A stretch of DNA of 28,234 nucleotides from a virus, in IMG/VR virus record IMGVR_UViG_3300004463_000255, positions 1 to 28,234 of that record; one strand, written 5' to 3'. Under the pieces are notes generated by a model that had not been told where the DNA came from, did no database searches, and saw only the letters and a program-made list of their open reading frames with translations. Positions 1-27,399 of this stretch are shown in pieces. The translations under genes were made by a program, and so were the position numbers. Numbering within the stretch: the first letter of the stretch is position 1; each line of letters opens with the position of its first letter.

Positions 1-2920
1 TCAATGACGCATCAGTTACGTGCTGAACGGCGTTTGATTTCTTCAGGTTCGCACTTGTTGAATGAGATACTGCCTGACCACGACGCTTGTTAGCTGAGGT
101 GCTGTGGATTACTACAGTAGCCTTACGCAAGTATGCATCTGTCGTGTGGTTTAGGATGTCACGTGAGCGTAGGAACGAATCAGTTGTGTGATCGATCTCT
201 GCTGGCTTACGCTTATTAGTATCTGTTGAGTGGACAACTACTGTAGCCTTGCGTAGATTTGCACCTGTAGAGTGAGTACGTTCGTTACCACCACGGAACA
301 TTGCAGAAGTCGAGTGACTGATAGCAACTGGCTTACGCTTGTTAGCGTCTGTTGTGTGGTCTACGGTTTCGCTTGCTCTCAAGAATGAATCTGTAGCGTG
401 GCTGATTGCAGCACGTAGTCTTGCAAATGCATCTGTAGCGTGAACTAGTGTACGTTCGATTCTCTTTAGGGTGTCGGTATCGTGAGATTCGCTGTAACCA
501 CGACGTAGGTTTGCACTTGTTACGTGGAATGTACCGTTAGCGTTACGCTTGAAGGCATCTGTGAAGTGAACCTTAGTTGCAGTCTTCTTCTTGTTAGCGT
601 CGGTAGTATGTGCTACTGTCGAACGCTTACGTAAGAATGAACTTGTGCTGTGTGATAGAACGTTTAATGTACGTAGTACTGTGCTTGTTGAGTGGCTTAC
701 AGAGATTGCACGGCGGAGAACTGCACTTGTTGCGTGAGTTACTAGGTTACCACCCTTACGCTTGTTAGCGTCTGTGCTGTGTGAGAGGCTATATAGGCGA
801 CGTTTGTTAGCAGATGTCGTATGTGTCAGGCTAAACAGCTTACGCTTGTTAGATGAAGTTGTGTGAGCTACAGCAGTAAGCTTACGCTTGTTTGCACTCG
901 TTGTGTGAGTAAGAGCGTTAGCCTTACGGATGAATGCACTTGTGCTGTGGCTTAGTACGTTTCGAGTTCTCTTGAATGCGTCAGTCGAGTGGGCCAAAGT
1001 CTTACGAGCACGTAGTAGAGTGTCGGTTGTGTGGGTTACTACTATTTCAATTCTCTTGAATGCAGAAGTTGTGTGGGCTAGAACGTTGCCGCTCTTACGC
1101 TTATTAGCAGAAGTAGAGTGAGCTACTAGGTTTCCGGCGATCTTCTTGTTCGTGTCTGTAGAGTGAACAATAGTGTACGCACGACGTAGGTTGGCATCTG
1201 CTGTATGAGATACGACGTTGCTTGCACGCTTCTTGTTAGAGTCTGTACTGTGGCTTAGTGTGTTGCTCTTACGAACGATTGCATCAGTTGTATGTGCGAG
1301 AACGTTTTGTGTTCGCTTGAATGCACTGGTTGAATGTGTAAGAGCGATTGTCTTGCGTAGGAATGAATCTGTTGAGTGAGCTAGAGTCTTTTCACTTCGC
1401 TTCAGGGCATCGGTTAGGTGGGTAAGAACGTTACGTGTACGCTTGAATGCGTCAGTCGAGTGAGTTAGAGATAGATTAGCCTTACGCTTGTTGGCACTTG
1501 TTGAGTGAGATACAGAGTAGACACGACGCTTGTTAGCATCTGTATTGTGGTTTAGCTGGTTAGCACCACGACGGAATGCATCTGCCAAGTGGCTGACTGT
1601 GTTAGCAGCCTTCTTCTTGTTGGAATCTGTTGAATGTGTTAACGCTACTCGACGACGTAAGAAGCTGTCAGTTGTGTGAGATCGAGTGATCGATGCAACA
1701 CGCTTATTAGCACTTGTAGTATGAGATACGGTGTTGTTTGCTTTCTTCTTGTTCGCATCAGTTGTGTGGGCGAGAACTGAAAGTTTACGCTTGTTTGCAG
1801 ATGTTGTGTGAACGATTGCAAGTTGACGACGTAGAACCGAGCTTGTCGTGTGGGTCTTAGCCAGCAGACGACGTAGCAGGGTGCCAGTTGTGTGCGATAG
1901 AACATTCTGTGTACGCTTCAGTGCGTTCGTGCTGTGCGTAAGAAGATTGTTCGCCTTACGCTTGTTGGCCGAAGTCGTGTGAGTAAGGACGTTACCGATC
2001 TTCTTCTTGTTCGCTGAAGTCGTGTGGCTTACGCTGTATGCACGTTTCTTATTTGCATCTGTTGAGTGCGATAGTTGGTTAGCACCACGTAGGAATGAAT
2101 CCGTCGAGTGAGCCAGAATTAGTTGACGACGCAAGAAGCTGTCTGTTGTGTGAGACTTGGTTGTAAGAGTTCTCTTGAGGGCGTTAGTCGTGTGAGCTAG
2201 AGTATTGACAGAACGCTTTAATGAGTCTGTAGTATGGAATGTAACAGTTGCCTTACGCTTATTTGCAGAAGTTGTGTGAACAAGTGCAGTCTGCTTGCGT
2301 AGGAACGAACTCGTGCTGTGAGTTAGAGCGTTGCGTGTCTTCTTGAATGCATCTGTTGTGTGCGATAGACTTAGCTGACGACGCTTGAATGAGCTTGTGC
2401 TGTGAGAGAGTGTGTTTAACTTACGCAGTACAGAGTTTGTTGTGTGCGTTAGTAGGTTATTTGCCTTCTTACGGTTAGCATCAGTAGTGTGCGAAATAAC
2501 CGTTAGCTTACGCTTGTTAGCAGAAGTGCTGTGGGCTAGAACGCTCTGCTTACGGATAACCGCTGAGGTTGTGTGACTTTGAGTGTTACGTGTCTTCTTA
2601 AGCGAATCGGTTGTGTGAGTTAGAGCGATCTGACGACGTAGGAATGAGCTTGTGGTATGAGCTAGTGTTAAGCCAGCCTTACGCTTATTCGCAGAAGTCG
2701 TGTGGCTTACCGTTAGGTTTGCTTTACGCTTGTTAGCGTCGGTTGAGTGAGATACTACGCTTGCTTTTCTCAGAACAGATGATGTAGTATGAGATACAAC
2801 GTTTGCAGACTTCTTCTTGTTTGAATCTGTAGTATGGGTCTTAACACCTTGAGTACGCTTGAATGCACTTGTAGTGTGGGTAAGAGTTGATTCTTTACGC
2901 TTTAGTGTGTCGGTTGAATG
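1..2920 (-). repeat. Coding repeat block 3 (HTTD-type units, continues past window)
   Basis: About 67 units without interruption, beginning HSTDTLKRKESTLT and still running at the window edge. Some multi-unit segments recur, for example RGANQLSHSTDANKKRAYS and RGANQLNHNTDANKRRVYS about 13 units apart, so longer stretches were duplicated at least once. Confidence 0.85.
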
Positions 2921-5900
2921 TTCTACGGTGTAAGAAGCAGCGTTAGAGTATGTTACCTCTAGGTCAACACGCCAAGCGTATACACCAGTAGACATACCGC
3001 CAGTGGCGATCCAGTAAGTTGTACCAAGTTCTTGAGCGAGACCGTCTGAGTAAACGGTTGCCTGGGCGTTCGTCTGACCCTTAACTCCGCCTGGAGTCAT
3101 TGTGATCTTAGTTTCTAGGTCGCTAACTTTTTGCCATGTCCAGCCACCAGTAGGTCCAGTTAGGGTTGCCCATGATGAGAAGTTAGCATAGTTGTCCTGG
3201 TCACCCTGAGCAAACATACGAACACGTACTTGAGTGATCGTTGAAACGTTAGATGATGGAGCACTAGTACCCTGACCGAGCAAGTAACCGAATGAAGTTG
3301 TAGAGGCCGTAGCAGAGTTTGCACCTGATGTGTAACTTGCATCGAATGTATCTGCGTCAGTAGGACCCCAGTAACCGTTAGGGTCTGAGATACCATCTGA
3401 ACCGTCGAAGTAGTAGTTGCCGATACTTACTGGGTTAGGTGCTAGGTAAGAGTTTGTGTTGTGCGAAACTACCGAAGTCTTTCTCTTATTTGCATCTGTA
3501 GTGTGAGCACTAATGAACTGGCTACGCTTGAAGGCACTAGTCTGATGTGTCAGTGTGCTTACCTTGCGCTTGAGAGCATCAGTAAGATGAGTTCGTGTGA
3601 ACTGTTGACGTTTTACGGCACTTGTAGTATGAGAGAGTACAGAGCGAGTCTTCTTAAGAGCGTCGGTGTTGTGGGCAGCAGTGATTGCTGCAACACGCTT
3701 GTTGGCCGAAGTAGTGTGCGATACGGTAATCAGTCTACGAAGAACTGAACCAGTTGTGTGGCTTAGTGTAGATCGTGTACGCTTCAGTGCATCAGTGATG
3801 TGCGAAACAGTGAATATCTTACGCTTCAGAGCGTCTGTAGTGTGAGCACGAAGATTTCCAGCTACCCTCTTGTTCGCACTTGTTGAGTGAGAGAGTACGT
3901 TATTAGCTTTACGCTTGTTGGCACTCGTTGTATGAGTAAGTGTTAGACGACGGAGTAACAAGCTATCAGTTTTATGCGATAGAGTATTGGCTGCCTTCTT
4001 CTTGTTTGCACTTGTAGTGTGAGAACGAACGAGTGCTGCACGCTTGTTTGCTGAGGTCGTGTGAGATACTACAGTGGCTTTTCTCTTGATAGAGTCTGTA
4101 GAGTGGGCAAGAGTAAACTGACCACCGATGTTCACGTTGTCTACGTAGAAGTTACCAACAGTAGTTACTGAGGCAACACCTTCTAGGCCGAATCCAGCAG
4201 TTACCTTGTCTAGAGTGATTGTACCAGCAGGAACTTGGCTTGCACGGTTTGTCCATGTAACGCCATCTGGTGAAGTGTCGAAGTAGATTGTACCACCTGA
4301 TTCACGGATTCTTACCCATGATACAGCAGCTGAGTATGCAACAGTGTAAAGAACGTTGTCGCCACCAGTGTTGTAAACGGCACGAAGGTTTCCGCCTAGG
4401 TATTGCCATGCTACGGCACGGGTTGTGCCGATGGTTACCCAACCGTAAGCAAGCTTTTGGTTGTTATCAGGTACGGTTACGATCTGCCACTTGAATGCCT
4501 GACCTACGAAGTTGAAGTAACGGCTGTAGTTCGTCTGGAAGTAGGCGTTGTCAAACATTGTAGCACCGATAGGAATCGATAGCTGTGCACGACCATTTAC
4601 CTCGGTAGCGTTGCCAGATACAGACCATAGAGCTGTGTTAATCGAGTTGTCGTTGAAGTTGTCTACTACAGTTGTGCTGAATGGGTAGTGCTGGAGGTAT
4701 GAACCAGTAGTGTGCGAAAGTACAGATGTACTCTTCTTGTTGGAATCTGTAGTGTGGGCTAGTGTGTTACGACTACGCTTAAGAGCATCTGTTAGGTGAG
4801 TGCGTAGGTTATTGGCTACACGCTTGTTGGCAGATGTGGTGTGTGAAGCGGTGTAGGCACGACGCTTTAATGAGTCGGTCGTGTGGGTCTTTGTGAACTG
4901 TGTTCTCTTGAACGAGTCAGTCGTGTGAGAGAGAGTGAACTGCTTACGCTTTACAGCACTTGTGGTATGAGACAGTACCGCTGTCTTACGTATGACCGTA
5001 GACGTTGTGTGAGATGCAGTATTACCTGAACGTTTCTTGTTCGCATCAGTTGTGTGTGATCGAGTAGTGGCTTTCTTAAGATTCGAGCTTGTTGTGTGCG
5101 AAACAGTAATAGCCTTCTTCTTATTTGAAGAAGTGGTATGTGAAACCGTTGCTGCTTTTTTCTTGTTCGCATCTGTTGAATGAGAGAGTAAAGTAGCTTT
5201 ACGCTTAAGGGCATTAGTAGAATGAGATATATCGATCGTCTGCACGCCCACAGCAATACGGGCATCAGTTGTGTGAGATACAGTTGTTCTAGTTTTCTTT
5301 AGAGCATCTGTCGTATGAGATCGAGTATTGTTTGCGATTTTCTTATTCGCAGATGTTGAATGCGAAAGAGTAAACGCCTTTCTCTTGAGTGAGTCAGTAA
5401 GGTGCGTCTTTAATACACCAGCTGTACGTTTATTCGCACTAGTTGTGTGTGATACTACATTGTTAGCACGCTTTTTATTTGCGTCTGTTGTGTGTAGCTT
5501 AGTAAATTGTTTACGCTTGAGAGCATCTGTAGTGTGAGACTTTGTACCAGTTGCACGCTTGAGTGAACTTGTTGTGTGCGAGATAGGTGGGGAAAGTCTC
5601 TTTAGGGCGTTAGTCGTGTGGGTCTTCGTTGTCTGCTTACGCTTGACAGATGAAGTACCATGTGTCTTAGTATAAGAAGCTACACCAGCCGTGAAGGATG
5701 CGGTGAAGTAGTCGGTAGAAAGAGTTGATTCTGTCTGGGCAACGTTAAAGCCTTCAACACTGGCCGATGAAGATGTGCTGGCAGTGTTGGCATTAAGTCT
5801 GATTCTAACAGCGGCGTTATCCATCGGTGCGTTGGTTGCTGCCTCGTCATATGCACTAGTCCATGAACTCGCATCAGATGAGTACTCATAGTAAAGTCTT

Positions 5901-6787
5901 CCGGTGCTCGTGCTGTGTCTGAATCTGATAAATTTATGTGTAGTGGTGCTGAAAGTTCCGATGTTTGTCAGCATCCCACCGCCACCGTCGTCAGTTCCGA
6001 ACACCATGATATTCCCGTTAGCTATACGGAAAGAACGCTCTACATTAGTGGCGTTGTTAGTCAATGTGTTGAATGTGAATATGTCATTAGAAGCAGCTAG
6101 GTTCATGCTGTCTATCTGTATAAAAGCATAGCTATCTGTCAGATCGTAGTTCGACGCACTCAGAATCGAGATACTGCCAGTTGCTGTTGAAGAAAGGTTA
6201 AGCTTTCCGTTAACCGTAGCTGATGAAGTACCGCTTGAAGATTGTGACCAGTTAGAGCTTAGTGAGCTTCCAGAGAAGTCGTCTTGTAGGGTGGACATAG
6301 ATGGCAGAGAAACGGTAACTTCTATTTCAACCTTAGCAAGGTTTCCTGAGTCGGCACCACCAGTGCTGGCAATAGCAGCCTGAACGGTTCCTAGATTCTG
6401 ACCATTTGATGCTGTAGTGATGTCGGTGTATACGTAAGTCGTGAATCCAGGATCGAACGTGTTGTAAGATCGAGACTCAAGCTGTGATACTTTTGTCCAA
6501 TCCCAGCCGCCAGTAGGGGTAGATAGGGTCGTATATGCACTCCACGAGCGAGTACCAGTAGTGTTACCACCAGCGTAGATTCTTGCACGAACCTGAGAAA
6601 TGGTACCGCCAGAAGTAGGGGCTGTGGTTCCTCGACCAACAAGAGCACCAGAAGAGCTTGAGCTTGTACCGCCCATAGAAGCAACTGTAGTAGTTGATCC
6701 ATCGAAGCCGTTAGCATCATTGACCCATGCACTTTGTGCATCGAGTATGCCTATGTTCGCATTGACATAGTATGTACTAACAGCCAT
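1..6787 (-). CDS. Giant repeat-rich tail fibre or adhesin-like protein (C-terminus outside window)
   Basis: The minus-strand frame beginning ATG at 6787 stays open for 2,262 codons and leaves the window without a stop. Its ATG overlaps the TAA of the Kelch gene (TAATG), so the two are probably translationally coupled. The protein starts MAVSTYYVNANIG. Approximate layout: residues 1-160 a beta-rich domain; 165-345 a lectin or LamG-like domain opening LQDDFSGSSLSSNWS; 376-699 repeat block 1; 700-893 a second lectin-like domain (DNFNDNSINTALWS); 895-1115 repeat block 2; 1116-1288 a domain similar to the N-terminal one (both contain PTGGW-W-KVS); 1290-2262 repeat block 3. The repeat is 14 or 15 residues, roughly H-[ST]-T-[DS]-[AS]-[NFL]-[KL]-[KR]-[KRT] followed by a variable hydrophobic or polar tail. 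Position at the end of the tail operon and repeats joined to lectin-like domains suggest a long fibre or host-binding protein of the virion. That role is inference. No signal peptide is seen. Confidence 0.85.
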   Translation of the reverse strand, partial: MAVSTYYVNANIGILDAQSAWVNDANGFDGSTTTVASMGGTSSSSSGALVGRGTTAPTSGGTISQVRARIYAGGNTTGTRSWSAYTTLSTPTGGWDWTKVSQLESRSYNTFDPGFTTYVYTDITTASNGQNLGTVQAAIASTGGADSGNLAKVEIEVTVSLPSMSTLQDDFSGSSLSSNWSQSSSGTSSATVNGKLNLSSTATGSISILSASNYDLTDSYAFIQIDSMNLAASNDIFTFNTLTNNATNVERSFRIANGNIMVFGTDDGGGGMLTNIGTFSTTTHKFIRFRHSTSTGRLYYEYSSDASSWTSAYDEAATNAPMDNAAVRIRLNANTASTSSSASVEGFNVAQTESTLSTDYFTASFTAGVASYTKTHGTSSVKRKQTTKTHTTNALKRLSPPISHTTSSLKRATGTKSHTTDALKRKQFTKLHTTDANKKRANNVVSHTTSANKRTAGVLKTHLTDSLKRKAFTLSHSTSANKKIANNTRSHTTDALKKTRTTVSHTTDARIAVGVQTIDISHSTNALKRKATLLSHSTDANKKKAATVSHTTSSNKKKAITVSHTTSSNLKKATTRSHTTDANKKRSGNTASHTTSTVIRKTAVLSHTTSAVKRKQFTLSHTTDSFKRTQFTKTHTTDSLKRRAYTASHTTSANKRVANNLRTHLTDALKRSRNTLAHTTDSNKKSTSVLSHTTGSYLQHYPFSTTVVDNFNDNSINTALWSVSGNATEVNGRAQLSIPIGATMFDNAYFQTNYSRYFNFVGQAFKWQIVTVPDNNQKLAYGWVTIGTTRAVAWQYLGGNLRAVYNTGGDNVLYTVAYSAAVSWVRIRESGGTIYFDTSPDGVTWTNRASQVPAGTITLDKVTAGFGLEGVASVTTVGNFYVDNVNIGGQFTLAHSTDSIKRKATVVSHTTSANKRAALVRSHTTSANKKKAANTLSHKTDSLLLRRLTLTHTTSANKRKANNVLSHSTSANKRVAGNLRAHTTDALKRKIFTVSHITDALKRTRSTLSHTTGSVLRRLITVSHTTSANKRVAAITAAHNTDALKKTRSVLSHTTSAVKRQQFTRTHLTDALKRKVSTLTHQTSAFKRSQFISAHTTDANKRKTSVVSHNTNSYLAPNPVSIGNYYFDGSDGISDPNGYWGPTDADTFDASYTSGANSATASTTSFGYLLGQGTSAPSSNVSTITQVRVRMFAQGDQDNYANFSSWATLTGPTGGWTWQKVSDLETKITMTPGGVKGQTNAQATVYSDGLAQELGTTYWIATGGMSTGVYAWRVDLEVTYSNAASYTVEHSTDTLKRKESTLTHTTSAFKRTQGVKTHTTDSNKKKSANVVSHTTSSVLRKASVVSHSTDANKRKANLTVSHTTSANKRKAGLTLAHTTSSFLRRQIALTHTTDSLKKTRNTQSHTTSAVIRKQSVLAHSTSANKRKLTVISHTTDANRKKANNLLTHTTNSVLRKLNTLSHSTSSFKRRQLSLSHTTDAFKKTRNALTHSTSSFLRKQTALVHTTSANKRKATVTFHTTDSLKRSVNTLAHTTNALKRTLTTKSHTTDSFLRRQLILAHSTDSFLRGANQLSHSTDANKKRAYSVSHTTSANKKKIGNVLTHTTSANKRKANNLLTHSTNALKRTQNVLSHTTGTLLRRLLAKTHTTSSVLRRQLAIVHTTSANKRKLSVLAHTTDANKKKANNTVSHTTSANKRVASITRSHTTDSFLRRRVALTHSTDSNKKKAANTVSHLADAFRRGANQLNHNTDANKRRVYSVSHSTSANKRKANLSLTHSTDAFKRTRNVLTHLTDALKRSEKTLAHSTDSFLRKTIALTHSTSAFKRTQNVLAHTTDAIVRKSNTLSHSTDSNKKRASNVVSHTADANLRRAYTIVHSTDTNKKIAGNLVAHSTSANKRKSGNVLAHTTSAFKRIEIVVTHTTDTLLRARKTLAHSTDAFKRTRNVLSHSTSAFIRKANALTHTTSANKRKLTAVAHTTSSNKRKLFSLTHTTSANKRRLYSLSHSTDANKRKGGNLVTHATSAVLRRAISVSHSTSTVLRTLNVLSHSTSSFLRKRSTVAHTTDANKKKTATKVHFTDAFKRNANGTFHVTSANLRRGYSESHDTDTLKRIERTLVHATDAFARLRAAISHATDSFLRASETVDHTTDANKRKPVAISHSTSAMFRGGNERTHSTGANLRKATVVVHSTDTNKRKPAEIDHTTDSFLRSRDILNHTTDAYLRKATVVIHSTSANKRRGQAVSHSTSANLKKSNAVQHVTDASL
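3440..4105 (-). repeat. Coding repeat block 2 (HTTD-type units)
   Basis: About 15 units between the second lectin-like domain and the duplicated N-terminal-type domain. It opens with HSTDSIKRKATVVS and closes with HNTNSYLAPNP. The closing NSYLAP resembles the GSYLQH that ends block 1, so the last unit of a block may be a specialised cap. Confidence 0.85.
4690..5662 (-). repeat. Coding repeat block 1 (HTTD-type 14-15 aa units)
   Basis: About 22 degenerate 42-45 bp units in the giant gene. The block opens with the cap KTHGTSSVKRK and closes at HTTGSYLQHYP. Units alternate between a 14-residue class (for example HTTDALKRKQFTKL) and a 15-residue class with an extra residue after the basic cluster (HTTDANKKRANNVVS). 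The amino-acid pattern is far better preserved than the DNA. Confidence 0.85.
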
Positions 6788-9700
6788 TACTGATAAACCC
6801 TGAAGACTACTTTGTTACCAGTCTGGTAGTAGTCGCTTAAGCTAGATGTAATACTTCCAGTGAGCGTAAAGTCAGTGTTGGCGGCAGTAGTATTGTCGCT
6901 TGCTAGTGTCTCCCATGAAGAAGATGTCTTGTTCCAAATCTGAAGATATACTGTGGAGGCAGATGGGGCGAGGGTGGTTTTACCATTCCATGTAGCACTA
7001 ATCTGATCGGTGCTATTCGTATTGGTTCTCTCGTACATATGTAGAAGATACTGGTTACCAGTTACATCTGTGTAAACTGAATTATCTGAAGAAACGTTAA
7101 CTACCTCTGCTTTTGTGTAAGCAGTGCTTAGTGGTGTTGCTGTCGTAGGAAGTGTTGGGTTGCTTTGCTTTGTGAAGTGGGCGTTTGTACGCATGTCTGC
7201 GTCGGTAGAGTGAGACTTAGTACCGAGAGTTTTCTTGAACGAGCTTGTACCGTGTGTCTTTGTGAACTGAGGTGTACCAGTACCAAGAACGTAGTCAGCA
7301 GAAGATTCAGCATTACCGCCGAATGAAACCCAGAGGCTGTTTTCTGAGCCTTCAGTTACTCGTGTCTGCCAGTGATAGCCACCAGCCGAACCACCAGTTA
7401 CTGTGTAGTAAACAGGAGAGAATGCGTCTGGGGTCTTATTCACCCAAGAGCTGTTAGAGATAGTAACATAGTCGGGTGTCAGTGCCCATGTGTCTTTATA
7501 CCAAGAACCAGTGCTAGGACGACCGCCGAATACGTAGAATTTACCGCTGATGAACTGGCCGATCGTAGAACGACGGTTAGCTGGATAGCTGATTGGGTAG
7601 TTGTGGTTCCAGACCGTGCTCGAACCAACCATGAGCGTACTTGTGGCACCGATAACATCAGTACCGTTGAACCCACCATAAACGATGAATGCGTTGTTCG
7701 TTTCATCGAAGTCGGCAGCTGGTGTACGACGACCAAGACCGTTAGTAGTTGAGATCGTAGTCCAGGTAGGGTTTACGTTAGTGTAGTCTAGGTAAGCTGT
7801 CTGAGTTGAGACAGTCGTAAGTGAGGCGTTGGTTGCACCAGCGTGGATGTAAAGTCGTTTCGCTGATTTGTTTTCACCGAATGCAGGACCAGTAACGGCA
7901 GTCACTGAGCCAGTAGGTGTAAGTTGTGACCAAGCACCTTCAGCACTTGACGAGAAGTCTAGTTGCCATACGTCGTTGAAGAGTGATGAGCCGTTGCTTC
8001 CTAGTGCGAAGATGGCACGGTTTCGAGCTGAGTCGAATACACCGACACCAAGCCAGCGAGGTGCTGGGCGAGTTCCAGTTGGGAATAGTTGCTTGACTGC
8101 GTAGTTGCCTACTGTATCACGTGTGAGTGAGTAAACACCGTTAGCCTGACCTTCTACCCCATTTAGACCACCAAAGACGATTGCACGGCCTCTCACGCTG
8201 TCCCAGACCACAACCTGACCCTCTAGTTGAGGCAGAGCCTTGTAGCCTTGAACTGCATAACGCCATTGGTTGTTGGTTGCGTTGTAAGTCCATACGTCAC
8301 CACCGTGTGAGCCGTTAGGAATAGTAGCGTCATCGTACATGTCTTCGAACCCACCAGTTTGAATCCACTCGTTAGCAGTTTCATCTAAAGTTGAGCCCAT
8401 AGCGTCACGTGAGTTTAGGTATTCACCGTCAGCGATTGAGTAGACTGGGAAGTTGCTTGTAGCCGTGTCTCTAAAGTCGATAATGTAATCGTAGCGTTCG
8501 GCACCTGAGTCTGGTGTTGCCATTTGGAAGAGAACCAACCAGCCCTTGTCTGTGTCTACAATGTTGCCTGAGAACATATGTCCTGGGAATGTCTGGTCGC
8601 CGCCACTGAAGGCTGCGTTAGCACGAACTTCTACGTAAGATTCAGAACCACCGACATCATTGATGTAGCCGATGTTATTTCGGTTTGTTGTGTAAGAGCC
8701 GTCAGTTGCCCAGCCACCTGAGAACCAGAAACGGTTGTTGATCGCATCATAACCACCAGCAGGGAACTCGGTACCAGTCGGTGCTGTTCCTGTAGGTGAG
8801 GTGTTAGTCCATGTGTTTCCTGCAATATCGTATTCCCAGAAGTCTGAGAGCATTGCTGAACCAGTGTTACCGCCGAAAAGATAAAGCTTGTGAGTAGATG
8901 GCTTATAGTCTAAGACACCACCGCTACGGCCAGTAGGGTTACCAGCTTGACCGTTAGTCTTAAGTGTTGTCCAAGTAACTGAGCCAGGACTTGCTGGGTT
9001 GAATACACAGCGATACATATCGTTCGAACGAGAAGCACCAGGCCAACCACCGAATAGATATACGTGGGTAAGATCAGAACCACCGCTAGAGGCAGGTGTA
9101 GAAACCATTTGCCTGTTTAGGTAGCTACGAGTAGTAGGTGTGTTTGTCTGAGTTACTGTAGTCCAAGATTCAGAGCCTGGAGTCGTAAGGTCGAGGTAGA
9201 ACATATCCTGACGGTCATTAGGGTCGGCACCACCCCATACATACATACCAGCCTTTAGAGAACCTGAAGTGCCTTCTACGTAGGTTGCACCGTGAAGGTT
9301 ACGTGCGACAGGTGCGGTACCAGTAGGGGTGATGAGCTGCCAAGTGTTACCTGGAACATCCATGTATTTCGCCCATACTTCGTTAAAGCGAGTCGTACCA
9401 TTATATCCGCCGAAAAATACGTATCGTTTATTTTTTCGATCATAGACAAGAGTACCACCACGCTTTGCGTACTGGATGTTGTTGTTACGGTAAGTTCTGC
9501 TTCTCAGTGTTTGAGTAGGTGTGTTGTCGAATGCCGTACCGATTGGTTCGATTTCGATTGAAGGTGTAGCTGCGTTAGATGGTGAACCAACGTGAGCGAT
9601 ACCAGCCTGTAGGTAGAGAGGGTCTGCCATACCAGCAGTACCAGTTGTGCCACCGACGGGAACTACTGTTGATAGGTTGCTGCTGTATTGACCGTACGGC

Positions 9701-11268
9701 TTGATCTTTGGGCGAGGTCCGTTGACTGTGAATGAACGAACTGTTGTTGGTGTCCAGCCCCAGAAGTTACCACCGCTAGGGTCACGAGCGTTGAATCGAT
9801 AGTAGTAAGTACCAGTCGGTAGAGCTGTCTGAAGAGTGTGTGCTACCTTCTGACCTGAGTTGAATGGGTTTGTGTCGCCAGGAGTAACTGTGTTTGCCCA
9901 ACCCGAACCAGTCGATATAGCGGTGTAAGAAGGTGTACCAGTGTAGATACCACAGGCAATGTCGATCGTGCTAGACGCACCCCATGAACCAGCGTTGTAG
10001 GCAGCATAGTTACCAGTAGTTACGCTGGCACTCGAACCAGTAACGATGATAGAGTTACCTGATGTTGAGAATCCAGAACCGACAGCGATTTCTACGGTTG
10101 CTACATAGTTCTGACCGCTGGATATAACGGCATCATCTAAGAAGTAGAAGTCAACCCACTGTGCACTAGCCGAGCTTGCCACAAGAGTTGAAGAGTCGAA
10201 GCTTGTGTACGATTCGGCGATAGCGTTGCCACTACCGACGGCACTCGTACCCATCGTACCTGTAGCTAGATAAATCTTAGAGATAATCTTAACAGTAGGT
10301 GCACCTTGTTTGTACAAGAAGAAACGAGTACGTCTGATTCTACCAGTTGCCCCAGCAGGGAAGGCTTGACCTAGGCGAGTGTTACCATCTCCACGAAGGA
10401 TATACCCACCAGCGGTGCTTGAGGCTTGCTCGAAGTTAAGCGTTTCATTACCTTGCATATTGCTTTGGGTGTCAATGTGAAGGCCGTACTGTACGTCGTT
10501 AGGCGTAGGGTCGGTAGCAGTTGCTTCAAGGACTGGAGTAGTGTCGCCGAAAGCAGTAGCATCAGTAGTGTTTACAGCGATTGTAGGTGGTTCGTTGAAC
10601 ACCTTTGTGATCGTCATCTGAGGGGTTACGGTGTAAGTGGCAAGCAACCCACCTGAGTCTAGAAGACGGAAAGTAATTACGTCACCAGTATTCAAGAAGC
10701 CGTAGTGAAGCATGATCGAGAACTCTACTTCAGAGTGGTCTGATCCTGAGTAAGTTACAGCCGCTGGGGTTACAGTATCACGGAATTGACCAGCACGAAA
10801 AGTACCAGTACCAGCGGTAAGCTGACCAGTAGTAGCAGTACCGTCTGTTACGTTAGGTGAATCTACAAGACGTACACCGTTAGTGGTAAGGTCGGCTGTC
10901 GCCCAACCAGCACCGTTGATGTTGTGCTGTACCTGAAAACTTGCGTTACCTGCCGCTGCACCAACTTCGTTTATTTCGAAACGTAAACGAAACTGGTAGT
11001 CACCAGTGATTGTAGGGTTGAACGCTGTGTTTTGGTTAGCCGCCCATGTAGCAGATGTTTCAGAGCCGTTGTCATTACGAAAACGGTACCCAACTTGGTT
11101 GAGCGTGAAGACAGAGTGACCTATTAAGTACTTTGGTACTGGTAGGTTATGCTTTTCAAACCACCAACAAAGTGGAATAGGCTTGAAGTCGTTACGAAGC
11201 CAAGTATGAAACTTAGAGTCTAAGAACCGCTGCTTTAAAGAGCGGTTATACTTATCGTGTATTCTCAC
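6787..11268 (-). CDS. Kelch beta-propeller tail protein
   Basis: A 1,493-aa protein. I start it at the GTG at 11268, which has AGGAG seven bases upstream and overlaps the end of the preceding gene by 17 nt; the longer open frame starting at a TTG at 11391 lies inside that gene and lacks support. Order: residues 1-40 basic (MRIHDKYNRSLKQRF); about 55-190 a beta domain with YRFRNDNGSET; a fibronectin-III-like part with PPTIAVNTTD and DPTPNDVQYGLHI; a further beta domain; about 600-1315 Kelch motifs, with strands such as YVFFGGYNG, VYLFGGWPG, LYLFGGNTG, AIVFGGLNG, FIVYGGFNG and FYVFGGRPS, each followed by W-T-type blade strands; about 1333-1370 three HTTD-type units; then a C-terminal beta domain ending VVFRVYQ. 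Kelch propellers bind proteins or glycans, so a receptor-binding or fibre role is likely. This is inferred from context. Confidence 0.8.
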   Translation of the reverse strand: MRIHDKYNRSLKQRFLDSKFHTWLRNDFKPIPLCWWFEKHNLPVPKYLIGHSVFTLNQVGYRFRNDNGSETSATWAANQNTAFNPTITGDYQFRLRFEINEVGAAAGNASFQVQHNINGAGWATADLTTNGVRLVDSPNVTDGTATTGQLTAGTGTFRAGQFRDTVTPAAVTYSGSDHSEVEFSIMLHYGFLNTGDVITFRLLDSGGLLATYTVTPQMTITKVFNEPPTIAVNTTDATAFGDTTPVLEATATDPTPNDVQYGLHIDTQSNMQGNETLNFEQASSTAGGYILRGDGNTRLGQAFPAGATGRIRRTRFFLYKQGAPTVKIISKIYLATGTMGTSAVGSGNAIAESYTSFDSSTLVASSASAQWVDFYFLDDAVISSGQNYVATVEIAVGSGFSTSGNSIIVTGSSASVTTGNYAAYNAGSWGASSTIDIACGIYTGTPSYTAISTGSGWANTVTPGDTNPFNSGQKVAHTLQTALPTGTYYYRFNARDPSGGNFWGWTPTTVRSFTVNGPRPKIKPYGQYSSNLSTVVPVGGTTGTAGMADPLYLQAGIAHVGSPSNAATPSIEIEPIGTAFDNTPTQTLRSRTYRNNNIQYAKRGGTLVYDRKNKRYVFFGGYNGTTRFNEVWAKYMDVPGNTWQLITPTGTAPVARNLHGATYVEGTSGSLKAGMYVWGGADPNDRQDMFYLDLTTPGSESWTTVTQTNTPTTRSYLNRQMVSTPASSGGSDLTHVYLFGGWPGASRSNDMYRCVFNPASPGSVTWTTLKTNGQAGNPTGRSGGVLDYKPSTHKLYLFGGNTGSAMLSDFWEYDIAGNTWTNTSPTGTAPTGTEFPAGGYDAINNRFWFSGGWATDGSYTTNRNNIGYINDVGGSESYVEVRANAAFSGGDQTFPGHMFSGNIVDTDKGWLVLFQMATPDSGAERYDYIIDFRDTATSNFPVYSIADGEYLNSRDAMGSTLDETANEWIQTGGFEDMYDDATIPNGSHGGDVWTYNATNNQWRYAVQGYKALPQLEGQVVVWDSVRGRAIVFGGLNGVEGQANGVYSLTRDTVGNYAVKQLFPTGTRPAPRWLGVGVFDSARNRAIFALGSNGSSLFNDVWQLDFSSSAEGAWSQLTPTGSVTAVTGPAFGENKSAKRLYIHAGATNASLTTVSTQTAYLDYTNVNPTWTTISTTNGLGRRTPAADFDETNNAFIVYGGFNGTDVIGATSTLMVGSSTVWNHNYPISYPANRRSTIGQFISGKFYVFGGRPSTGSWYKDTWALTPDYVTISNSSWVNKTPDAFSPVYYTVTGGSAGGYHWQTRVTEGSENSLWVSFGGNAESSADYVLGTGTPQFTKTHGTSSFKKTLGTKSHSTDADMRTNAHFTKQSNPTLPTTATPLSTAYTKAEVVNVSSDNSVYTDVTGNQYLLHMYERTNTNSTDQISATWNGKTTLAPSASTVYLQIWNKTSSSWETLASDNTTAANTDFTLTGSITSSLSDYYQTGNKVVFRVYQ
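7160..7270 (-). repeat. HTTD-type repeats inside the Kelch protein
   Basis: Three units: KTHGTSSFKKTLGTKS, HSTDADMRTN and AHFTKQ. The first closely matches the opening cap of block 1 in the giant gene next door (KTHGTSSVKRK), so both proteins carry the same module. Confidence 0.75.
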
Positions 11269-11629
11269 GAGTCCACTCCTGTAGATAGTCGTAGTCTCGA
11301 AGGGACTTAGCTGATTTAACCCCGAAGTCTCTGTCTTCAGTGGCCTTTGCCATAATTTCGTTAAACAGAGGAGTTGGAACTGATACGCCAAACTTAACTA
11401 TTTTAGCACCTGGACTGAACATGTATTGCCAGTAGCCAGCTTCATCTGAGCCCCACCATTCATTACTTGCCCACCAGTAGAAATCTTTCATTGCCGAAAC
11501 AATAAACCCGTAGTCTGGGTGCTTCTGCACAATGCAAATAACCCCTGTAGTAGGAGCGTCTGCTGGTTCACCCATTGAGCTGTCAAAAGTTGACTTGTCT
11601 CCGTAGTAGATACGCCATGTTATATTCAT
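11252..11629 (-). CDS. Hypothetical protein, Trp-rich, 125 aa
   Basis: Not recognised. Begins MNITWRIYYGDKSTFDSS and contains an aromatic segment at about residues 48-69 (KDFYWWASNEWWGSDEAGYWQY). Its start overlaps the stop of the upstream 95-aa gene by 4 nt (ATGA), and its 3' end holds the ribosome binding site and GTG start of the Kelch gene, so the three are probably translated from one message. There is no membrane segment or signal. The opening (WRIYYGDKSTFDSSMGEP...P..GV) resembles small proteins often found next to phage tail fibres, but I cannot name a family. Confidence 0.75.
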   Translation of the reverse strand: MNITWRIYYGDKSTFDSSMGEPADAPTTGVICIVQKHPDYGFIVSAMKDFYWWASNEWWGSDEAGYWQYMFSPGAKIVKFGVSVPTPLFNEIMAKATEDRDFGVKSAKSLRDYDYLQEWTRENTR

Positions 11630-26006: not shown

Positions 26007-26153
26007 ATGAAAAAAGTTATAATTGGAATAATCATTGGAATCCTGGCTCCGCTTGTCCTGGACTTGTTCCTGTTCGGAACCCCGTTCCCGTGTTCCACCG
26101 TTACCACTTATGAGGACGGCTCCAGCGTCCAGAGTTGCAAGGTCCGGGGATAA
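26007..26153 (+). CDS. Small membrane or lipoprotein-like protein, 48 aa
   Basis: Start at ATG 26007 with AGGAGGG 3 nt upstream. MKKVIIGIIIGILAPLVLDL then FLFGTPFPC: a Lys-Lys N-terminus, a hydrophobic stretch at 4-23, and a short outer tail with Cys29 and Cys44 (TVTTYEDGSSVQSCKVRG). It looks like a membrane-anchored or secreted peptide with a possible disulphide. Cys29 is too far and in the wrong context for a clear lipobox. Function unknown. Confidence 0.6.
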   Translation: MKKVIIGIIIGILAPLVLDLFLFGTPFPCSTVTTYEDGSSVQSCKVRG

Positions 26154-26788: not shown

Positions 26789-26827
26789 TATAAATAAATA
26801 ATAAAACAACAAGAAAGGAGGTCTTAT

Positions 26828-27019
26828 ATGACCTTTAACAAACAAATCAACACTAACGTAGTGGAGCAACTTAAGTCCGCTACAATCCTCATTCTTATTG
26901 TAGGGATTGCTGCCTTTATTGGTGGTGTCCAGTATCAGAAGAATGCAACAGTTAGCGTCGAAAATAAGGTAGTCCTGAGTTCTGCTCAAGTGGCTCCTAC
27001 TGCCGACGTAAAAAAATAG
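26828..27019 (+). CDS. Membrane anchor, zero-frame product of a frameshift gene, 63 aa
   Basis: Start at ATG 26828 with a strong AAGGAGG 7 nt upstream. MTFNKQINTNVVEQLKSATI, then a Gly/Ala-containing membrane segment at about 18-36 (ATILILIVGIAAFIGGVQY), then a polar linker ending TADVKK at TAG. Alone it would be a small type II membrane peptide. The last two codons are AAA AAA within a slippery heptamer, and the -1 frame continues into the transglycosylase. So this is probably both a stand-alone peptide and the N-terminus of a 190-residue fusion. The weakly hydrophobic Gly/Ala-rich segment also suits a signal-arrest-release anchor. Confidence 0.75.
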   Translation: MTFNKQINTNVVEQLKSATILILIVGIAAFIGGVQYQKNATVSVENKVVLSSAQVAPTADVKK

Positions 27020-27052
27020 AAGGGGTTGTTGCTTCCCCTATTAAAGAGCAAC
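27010..27052 (+). other. Programmed -1 ribosomal frameshift signal (slippery site and H-type pseudoknot)
   Basis: The heptamer A AAA AAA (27010-27016) is in the correct phase before the zero-frame TAG at 27017. After a 4-nt spacer, stem 1 is AGGGG (27021-27025) / CCCCT (27035-27039). Loop 1 is TT. Stem 2 is GTTGCT (27028-27033) / AGCAAC (27047-27052), a perfect 6 bp. A single T joins stem 2 to stem 1, and loop 3 is 7 nt. These are normal dimensions for a frameshift pseudoknot. Confidence 0.75.
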
Positions 27053-27399
27053 TAGCTCCATGTGAGTTAGTAAGGGCGGAAATTGCCAAGTATCAAGACT
27101 GGGACGTTAGCGTTATGAGTGCTATAGCCCAAGCGGAGAACGGCAGTTGCAATCCACATCGTCATAACTTAACTACATCCGAAACTCATCGTAGGGCGGA
27201 CGGTTCGGTTATATGTATAGGATCATACGGCGTATTACAGGTCGGATGCCTACACTACACAGCGGGGGACGATGTTGATAGCCTAGAAACTAACGTCCGA
27301 CTGGCACATAATGCCTGGACCAGTCGTGAGAAGTGGGGCAACGGTTACGAGGCATGGACGACCTATTTAAATGGTGCGTTCAAACAATTCCTAAGATAA
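27016..27399 (+). CDS. Lytic transglycosylase/lysozyme-like domain, reached by -1 frameshift
   Basis: The -1 frame continues the anchor as IEGVVASPIKEQLAPCELVR and gives a 190-residue fusion. The domain has the SLT pattern: DWDVSVMSAIAQAENGSCNP with the catalytic Glu at fusion residue 104, IGSYGVLQVGCLHY (the GxxQ strand), and YEAWTTYLNGAFKQFL (C-terminal A-W-Y-G helix). This fold cleaves the glycan strands of peptidoglycan. The only start codon in this frame is ATG 27115, which has no Shine-Dalgarno site and would cut into the first helix of the fold; between the stop at 26965 and 27115 there is no ATG, GTG or TTG. So expression from the upstream start by frameshifting is the simplest reading. 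A sequencing error in the A7 run is the main alternative. Confidence 0.75.
   Translation: MEGVVASPIKEQLAPCELVRAEIAKYQDWDVSVMSAIAQAENGSCNPHRHNLTTSETHRRADGSVICIGSYGVLQVGCLHYTAGDDVDSLETNVRLAHNAWTSREKWGNGYEAWTTYLNGAFKQFLR

Follow-up and report, generated by a model that had tools for sequence, protein, structure and literature searches.

Among DNA phages, the most familiar cases of programmed -1 frameshifting are the tail chaperones. In known systems, a slip site of the A_AAA_AAN type, a short spacer and a downstream pseudoknot or stem give rise to a -1 fusion (PMC5009743, PMC4066793). The locus described here resembles the tail assembly chaperones, the IS3/IS911 transposases and dnaX of E. coli in having a slip site, a spacer and a structure. 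It differs from them in that the fusion would yield a wall hydrolase tethered to the membrane, and in that every member has its 0-frame stop directly after the slip codon.

SAR endolysins such as Lyz of phage P1 have an N-terminal transmembrane (TM) segment that exports and tethers the muralytic domain in an N-in/C-out orientation, and they are encoded by one continuous gene. The present locus likewise combines an N-terminal TM segment with a predicted muralytic domain, for which we infer the same N-in/C-out orientation, but here the gene is split. The nearest precedent is a Lactococcus phage lysin (1994) that is spread over two overlapping genes, and the authors of PRFect name lysins among the genes known to contain a frameshift (cited in PMC10274946, PMC4777826). 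The descriptions in these citing papers, which are the basis of our comparison, mention neither a membrane anchor nor a structured module for the Lactococcus lysin. The MS2 lysis gene, which is coupled to termination of the coat gene, is likewise a case of overlapping-frame lysis governed by ribosomes at a stop codon; in MS2, termination and restart lead to a separate protein (references listed in PMC5009743), whereas a fusion would be made here.

In the papers searched, we found no account of Saccharibacteria phages that produce a membrane-tethered hydrolase exclusively through frameshifting, from a conserved module that accepts different enzymes. The mechanism proposed here would thus be classical and its use unusual. 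The gene is very probably expressed by -1 programmed ribosomal frameshifting, giving a minority product predicted to be a membrane-tethered, outward-facing wall hydrolase, and it appears to represent a conserved recoding device, also present in 16 or more further viral sequences.

The split frame and its slip site

The sequence analyzed, referred to as the window, is the 28,234-nt virus record IMGVR_UViG_3300004463_000255. A Shine-Dalgarno sequence, AGGAGG (26816..26821, + strand; read directly in AAGAAAGGAGGTCTTATATG), provides a good ribosome-binding site upstream of a 63-aa ORF (26828..27019, +), which translates as MTFNKQINTNVVEQLKSATILILIVGIAAFIGGVQYQKNATVSVENKVVLSSAQVAPTADVKK-stop. This anchor ORF has a short N-terminal tail and one TM helix and ends V-K-K-TAG. 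Its final codons are GTA AAA AAA TAG (27008-27019), which puts the heptamer A_AAA_AAA (27010..27016, +) in the phase needed for simultaneous slippage, with the 0-frame stop TAG (27017..27019, +) directly 3' of it. Direct reading of these codons thus confirms the phase that an earlier sequence-only reading had assigned to the heptamer. The -1 frame is open from 27016 to 27399 (+), starts with the codon ATA, reads IEGVVASPIKEQLAPCELVRAEIAKYQDWDVSVMSAIAQAENGSCNPHRHN... and encodes 127 aa comprising a linker and a lysozyme-like/SLT domain. The fusion would therefore be 190 aa long (63 + 127), as had been stated. A reassigned TAG was not supported as an explanation, since opening TAG gains little long-ORF length in the window.

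According to the frameshifting model, most ribosomes would terminate at the TAG, and their product would be a peptide of 63 aa that crosses the membrane once, with its N-terminus inside and its C-terminus outside. A minority, delayed by a pseudoknot 4 nt downstream, would slip one base back on A_AAA_AAA and continue into the lysozyme/SLT-like domain, giving a ≈190-aa membrane-tethered peptidoglycan hydrolase facing the wall. As the anchor is the sole export signal of the enzyme, the frameshift would set both its amount and its location. If true, frameshifting decides the quantity and place of a potentially lethal wall hydrolase in phages of ultrasmall, hard-to-grow bacteria.

Using the -1 product of the window as a query against phage records, we identified the TM7 phage DolZOral124_53_65 (MG269973.1, here L003) with 60.5% identity and an E-value of 8e-43. 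Enzyme profile scans of viral contigs gave L004–L013 and L022–L024, and a scan with the anchor only gave L031, L032, L033, L035, and L036. L004 and L024 were left out of the count because their contigs end before the junction, and L012 and L042 because they are more distant and lack such an anchor. The final set contains 17 loci, i.e., the window and 16 further viral loci including L003. A single-protein search of viral contigs yielded nothing but L002, which was rejected as a chance match of 11 residues, and two scans of bacterial genomes gave no relative.

All 17 loci have a one-TM anchor that ends in Lys-stop and an enzyme that goes on in the -1 frame. No locus with this anchor module is unsplit, and the sense of the shift is the same throughout. 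The sequences are related, and the loci are therefore not independent events. In 17/17 loci the last sense codon encodes Lys; among 168 long ORFs from these phages, taken as background, this holds for 26. The complete A_AAA_AAA-stop is present at eight loci (window, L007, L008, L013, L023, L032, L033, and L035), while A_AAA-stop lacking the full heptamer is seen at six (L003, with C AAA AAA, L006, L011, L022, L031, and L036). In total, A_AAA-stop is kept in 14 of the 17 loci; L005 and L009 have C_AAG-stop and L010 has G_AAA-stop, so that these three have no canonical heptamer at the stop. In E. coli, A_AAA tetramers with a pseudoknot are weak but above background, and C_AAG with a pseudoknot shifts at 0.93%, which the authors credit to the shifty lysyl-tRNA(UUU) (PMC4066793).

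Additional heptamers could be identified in phase upstream of the stop, namely U_UUA_AAA at 12 nt (L009) and 27 nt (L005); L003 has A_AAA_AAC 24 nt upstream. In these three loci the shift might take place at either site. The -1 frame of L008 and L011 is open over no more than 10 nt ahead of the stop, so that the shift must fall within the final codons there.

The slip sequences also bear on two explanations that involve no ribosomal slippage. A continuous frame could have been broken by a miscounted A, through a sequencing or assembly error or in a decayed gene, and a homopolymer in metagenome-derived sequence invites this suspicion. However, the split recurs in 17 separate records with differing slip sequences, including a complete phage genome in GenBank, and it persists with a run as short as A4 (five loci; TCAAAATAG, TTAAAATAA, GTAAAATAA) or with CAAG instead (two loci), which miscounted A's do not explain. 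The -1 frame also shows purifying selection (see below). The A7 run of the window is accordingly not an assembly error, error can be regarded as excluded for the family on the strength of the 17 records, and this reading as a whole has a negligible probability. Transcriptional slippage on A7, giving mRNAs with an altered number of A's that encode the fusion, would suit the window and the seven other loci with A7, and such runs are under suspicion of it (PMC4066793). Yet the five A4 loci and the two CAAG loci have the same split, and covarying RNA structures downstream would be unnecessary; we consider this reading very unlikely.

The main rival is termination-reinitiation, in which the anchor would act as a holin-like peptide, while restart at the Lys-stop would give a separate soluble endolysin from the -1 ORF. 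Many phage endolysins are indeed soluble and need a holin. At the overlap, L013 (ATGA) and L007 (TAATG) have classical restart arrangements, and a GTG or TTG is found further inside at some other loci. In the window, however, the -1 frame contains no ATG, GTG, or TTG before 27115, just as the sequence-only reading had it, and the window, L008, and L009 all lack such a codon in this frame at or before the start of the conserved domain. In 16/17 loci, the -1 codon overlapping the stop reads ATA or GTA. Furthermore, reinitiation could do without the lysine codon and without a stable stem at a distance of 4 nt. It can account for L013 and L007, fails for the window, L008, and L009, and is improbable as the explanation for the family. 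Together with the downstream stems of the relatives (see below), the split in every copy supports, at the level of sequence comparison, the proposal that a frameshift joins the anchor to the enzyme.

The annotated gene CQ476_31 of L003 (“lysozyme-like domain protein”) ends GAC AAA AAA TAG and corresponds to the anchor alone, while the -1 enzyme has no annotated gene (MG269973.1, 17967-18227 and 17584-17922). The split explains this missing annotation, as CQ476_31 stops at the slip site. In L042, a TM anchor and an SLT-type domain are found within one frame, so the fused architecture is a natural one that exists without a shift. In L012 (1600-2220), a holin-like TM protein ends TAC TAG CTA. Beyond this stop, without a change of frame or an intervening ATG, GTG, or TTG, lies an SLT-type domain that has a hydrophobic stretch of its own, possibly reflecting stop readthrough or a rare start.

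RNA structure downstream of the slip site

A stable RNA structure follows the slip site in nearly all 17 loci, and in most of them the stem starts at about the fifth nucleotide after it (≈4 nt spacer). The stems of L003, L005, and L010 are 10–14 nt distant, and L035 has weak structure only. For the first 12 loci, the region was more stable than its shuffled versions, with a mean z of -2.17 (Stouffer -7.5) relative to dinucleotide shuffles, although single loci vary, and a mean z of -1.59 (Stouffer -5.5) relative to synonymous-codon shuffles of the -1 frame. In a gapless alignment of seven loci from one clade, 92.9% of the cells of the inner stem are paired, compared to 18–53% in slid controls, and five of its eight pairs have changed on both sides. 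The split relatives have thus kept their downstream stems, with compensatory changes.

In the window, stem 1 pairs AGGGG (27021..27025, +), located 4 nt past the slip site, with CCCCT (27035..27039, +). The 5' arm of stem 2, GTTGCT (27028..27033, +), lies inside the loop of stem 1 and pairs with AGCAAC (27047..27052, +). Both stems were found where the sequence-only reading had placed them, and stem 2 can be extended to 7 bp via a U-G pair. With a simple stacking model, the best H-type pseudoknot has -16.0 kcal/mol, a value reached by none of 600 dinucleotide shuffles. A competing hairpin (-15.4) is about as stable, and in this model the RNA may adopt either form. The plain MFE of the window is ordinary (z about -0.9 to -1.7), so the case is carried by the pseudoknot and the relatives.

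The pseudoknot is better than shuffles only in the window, L008 (p 0.005), L036, and marginally L011, and was therefore rejected as a family-wide structure. Most relatives have a two-part stem or a hairpin instead. The H-type pseudoknot of the sequence-only reading is thus confined to the window and L008, its closest relative, with L036 as a possible third case. With the window and L008 in register, 11 of the 12 cells of stem 2 are paired; in L008 one pair has changed on both sides (U-A to C-G) and one is broken. This covariation of stem 2 in two sequences only is suggestive.

In L003 (3926-4060) and L005 (5968-6060), the sequence CAGACAA at the slip site can also pair with TTGTCTG past the hairpin. 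The pairing is missing in L010 and may merely mirror conserved protein sequence.

The anchor and the enzyme domains

The TM helix of the anchor spans approximately residues 17–35, contains Gly and Ala, and has its hydropathy maximum (2.13) at residue 17. The anchors of the window and L008 are 66% identical. The predicted topology is N-in/C-out, as the N-termini of the relatives are rich in Lys and Arg and there is a single TM segment, and the enzyme would accordingly face the wall. A weak PHROG match of the anchor (E-value 0.084) to an Rz-like spanin had no other support and was set aside.

The window enzyme alone has no Pfam match, and its sequence matches in PHROG and PDB were weak and uninformative. 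PF18896 is matched by 5 of 12 aligned homologs (best E-value 2.3e-8). An AlphaFold model of the enzyme reached a pLDDT of 82.7, and its top PDB matches are all lysozymes, with modest scores (E-value ≈3e-3, TM ≈0.5). The -1 ORF has an A-E-N/S motif in which Glu41 is invariant among 14 aligned members, making it the putative catalytic glutamate. In seven of eight compared pairs, pN of the -1 frame was 0.15–0.30 compared to a near-saturated pS of 0.57–0.87, which indicates that the frame is under purifying selection.

L031–L033 carry the same anchor module followed by a more typical SLT domain (PF18896, 2e-14 to 1.7e-19; PF01464, down to 3.9e-12). The 100-aa product of L035 has no Pfam match but resembles, by eye, another lysozyme-type domain. 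Judging from these loci, different muralytic domains can follow one anchor, slip site and stem module. We tentatively suggest, while considering it somewhat less than an even chance, that the anchor, the Lys-stop slip site and the structured linker RNA form a portable cassette with which phages of Saccharibacteria supply the membrane with interchangeable cell-wall hydrolases in small, fixed amounts, while the more plentiful peptide consisting of the anchor alone serves as a holin or inhibits the enzyme. Such a cassette would also provide a sequence rule for finding enzymes of this kind.

Gene neighborhood, possible role and host

The neighborhoods of the anchor/enzyme gene are varied and do not form a uniform or classical late lysis cassette. 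The next gene is of helicase type in L006, L007, L022, L031, L032, and L036, and in L009 the anchor/enzyme gene comes after exonuclease- and SSB-like genes (all names assigned by eye). A ≈360-aa gene of the structural strand precedes the anchor/enzyme gene by no more than ≈600 nt in L003, L005, and L010. A role in lysis is plausible from the sequences, and the lysis control proposed in the sequence-only reading could involve an antagonist, a holin-like peptide or signal-arrest-release. However, the replication-type neighbors in several loci weaken a lysis role, and the enzyme may instead serve wall opening at entry, superinfection control or early wall remodeling.

Small one-TM proteins were also observed on either side of the gene. 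Proteins of 49–54 aa, which are candidate holins, overlap or abut the end of the enzyme ORF in L007 (6378-6542), L011 (6324-6479), and L022 (2392-2541). Another one-TM family (...YEDGSSVQSCKVRG / YEDGGSLQTCEVRG) is encoded shortly before the anchor gene in several loci, namely the window (26007-26153, +), L008 (5039-5305), and L031 (1341-1505).

DolZOral124_53_65 is recorded as infecting a bacterium of candidate division TM7 (Saccharibacteria). Based on similarity to this phage alone, the host of the window virus appears to be a bacterium of the Saccharibacteria type.

The window also encodes an 825-aa portal protein (PF04860; 21434-23908, - strand) that has no relative among the phage records. 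Its extra C-terminal part shows a weak match to the head morphogenesis family phrog_7625 (E-value 0.011). An open-ended protein of 2,262 aa (2-6787, - strand) consists mostly of short SHTTSANKRK-type repeats and is probably a fiber. A 1,534-aa protein located among phage tail genes (6787-11391, - strand) has a strong Kelch-repeat (β-propeller) match (PF24681, 7.6e-45).
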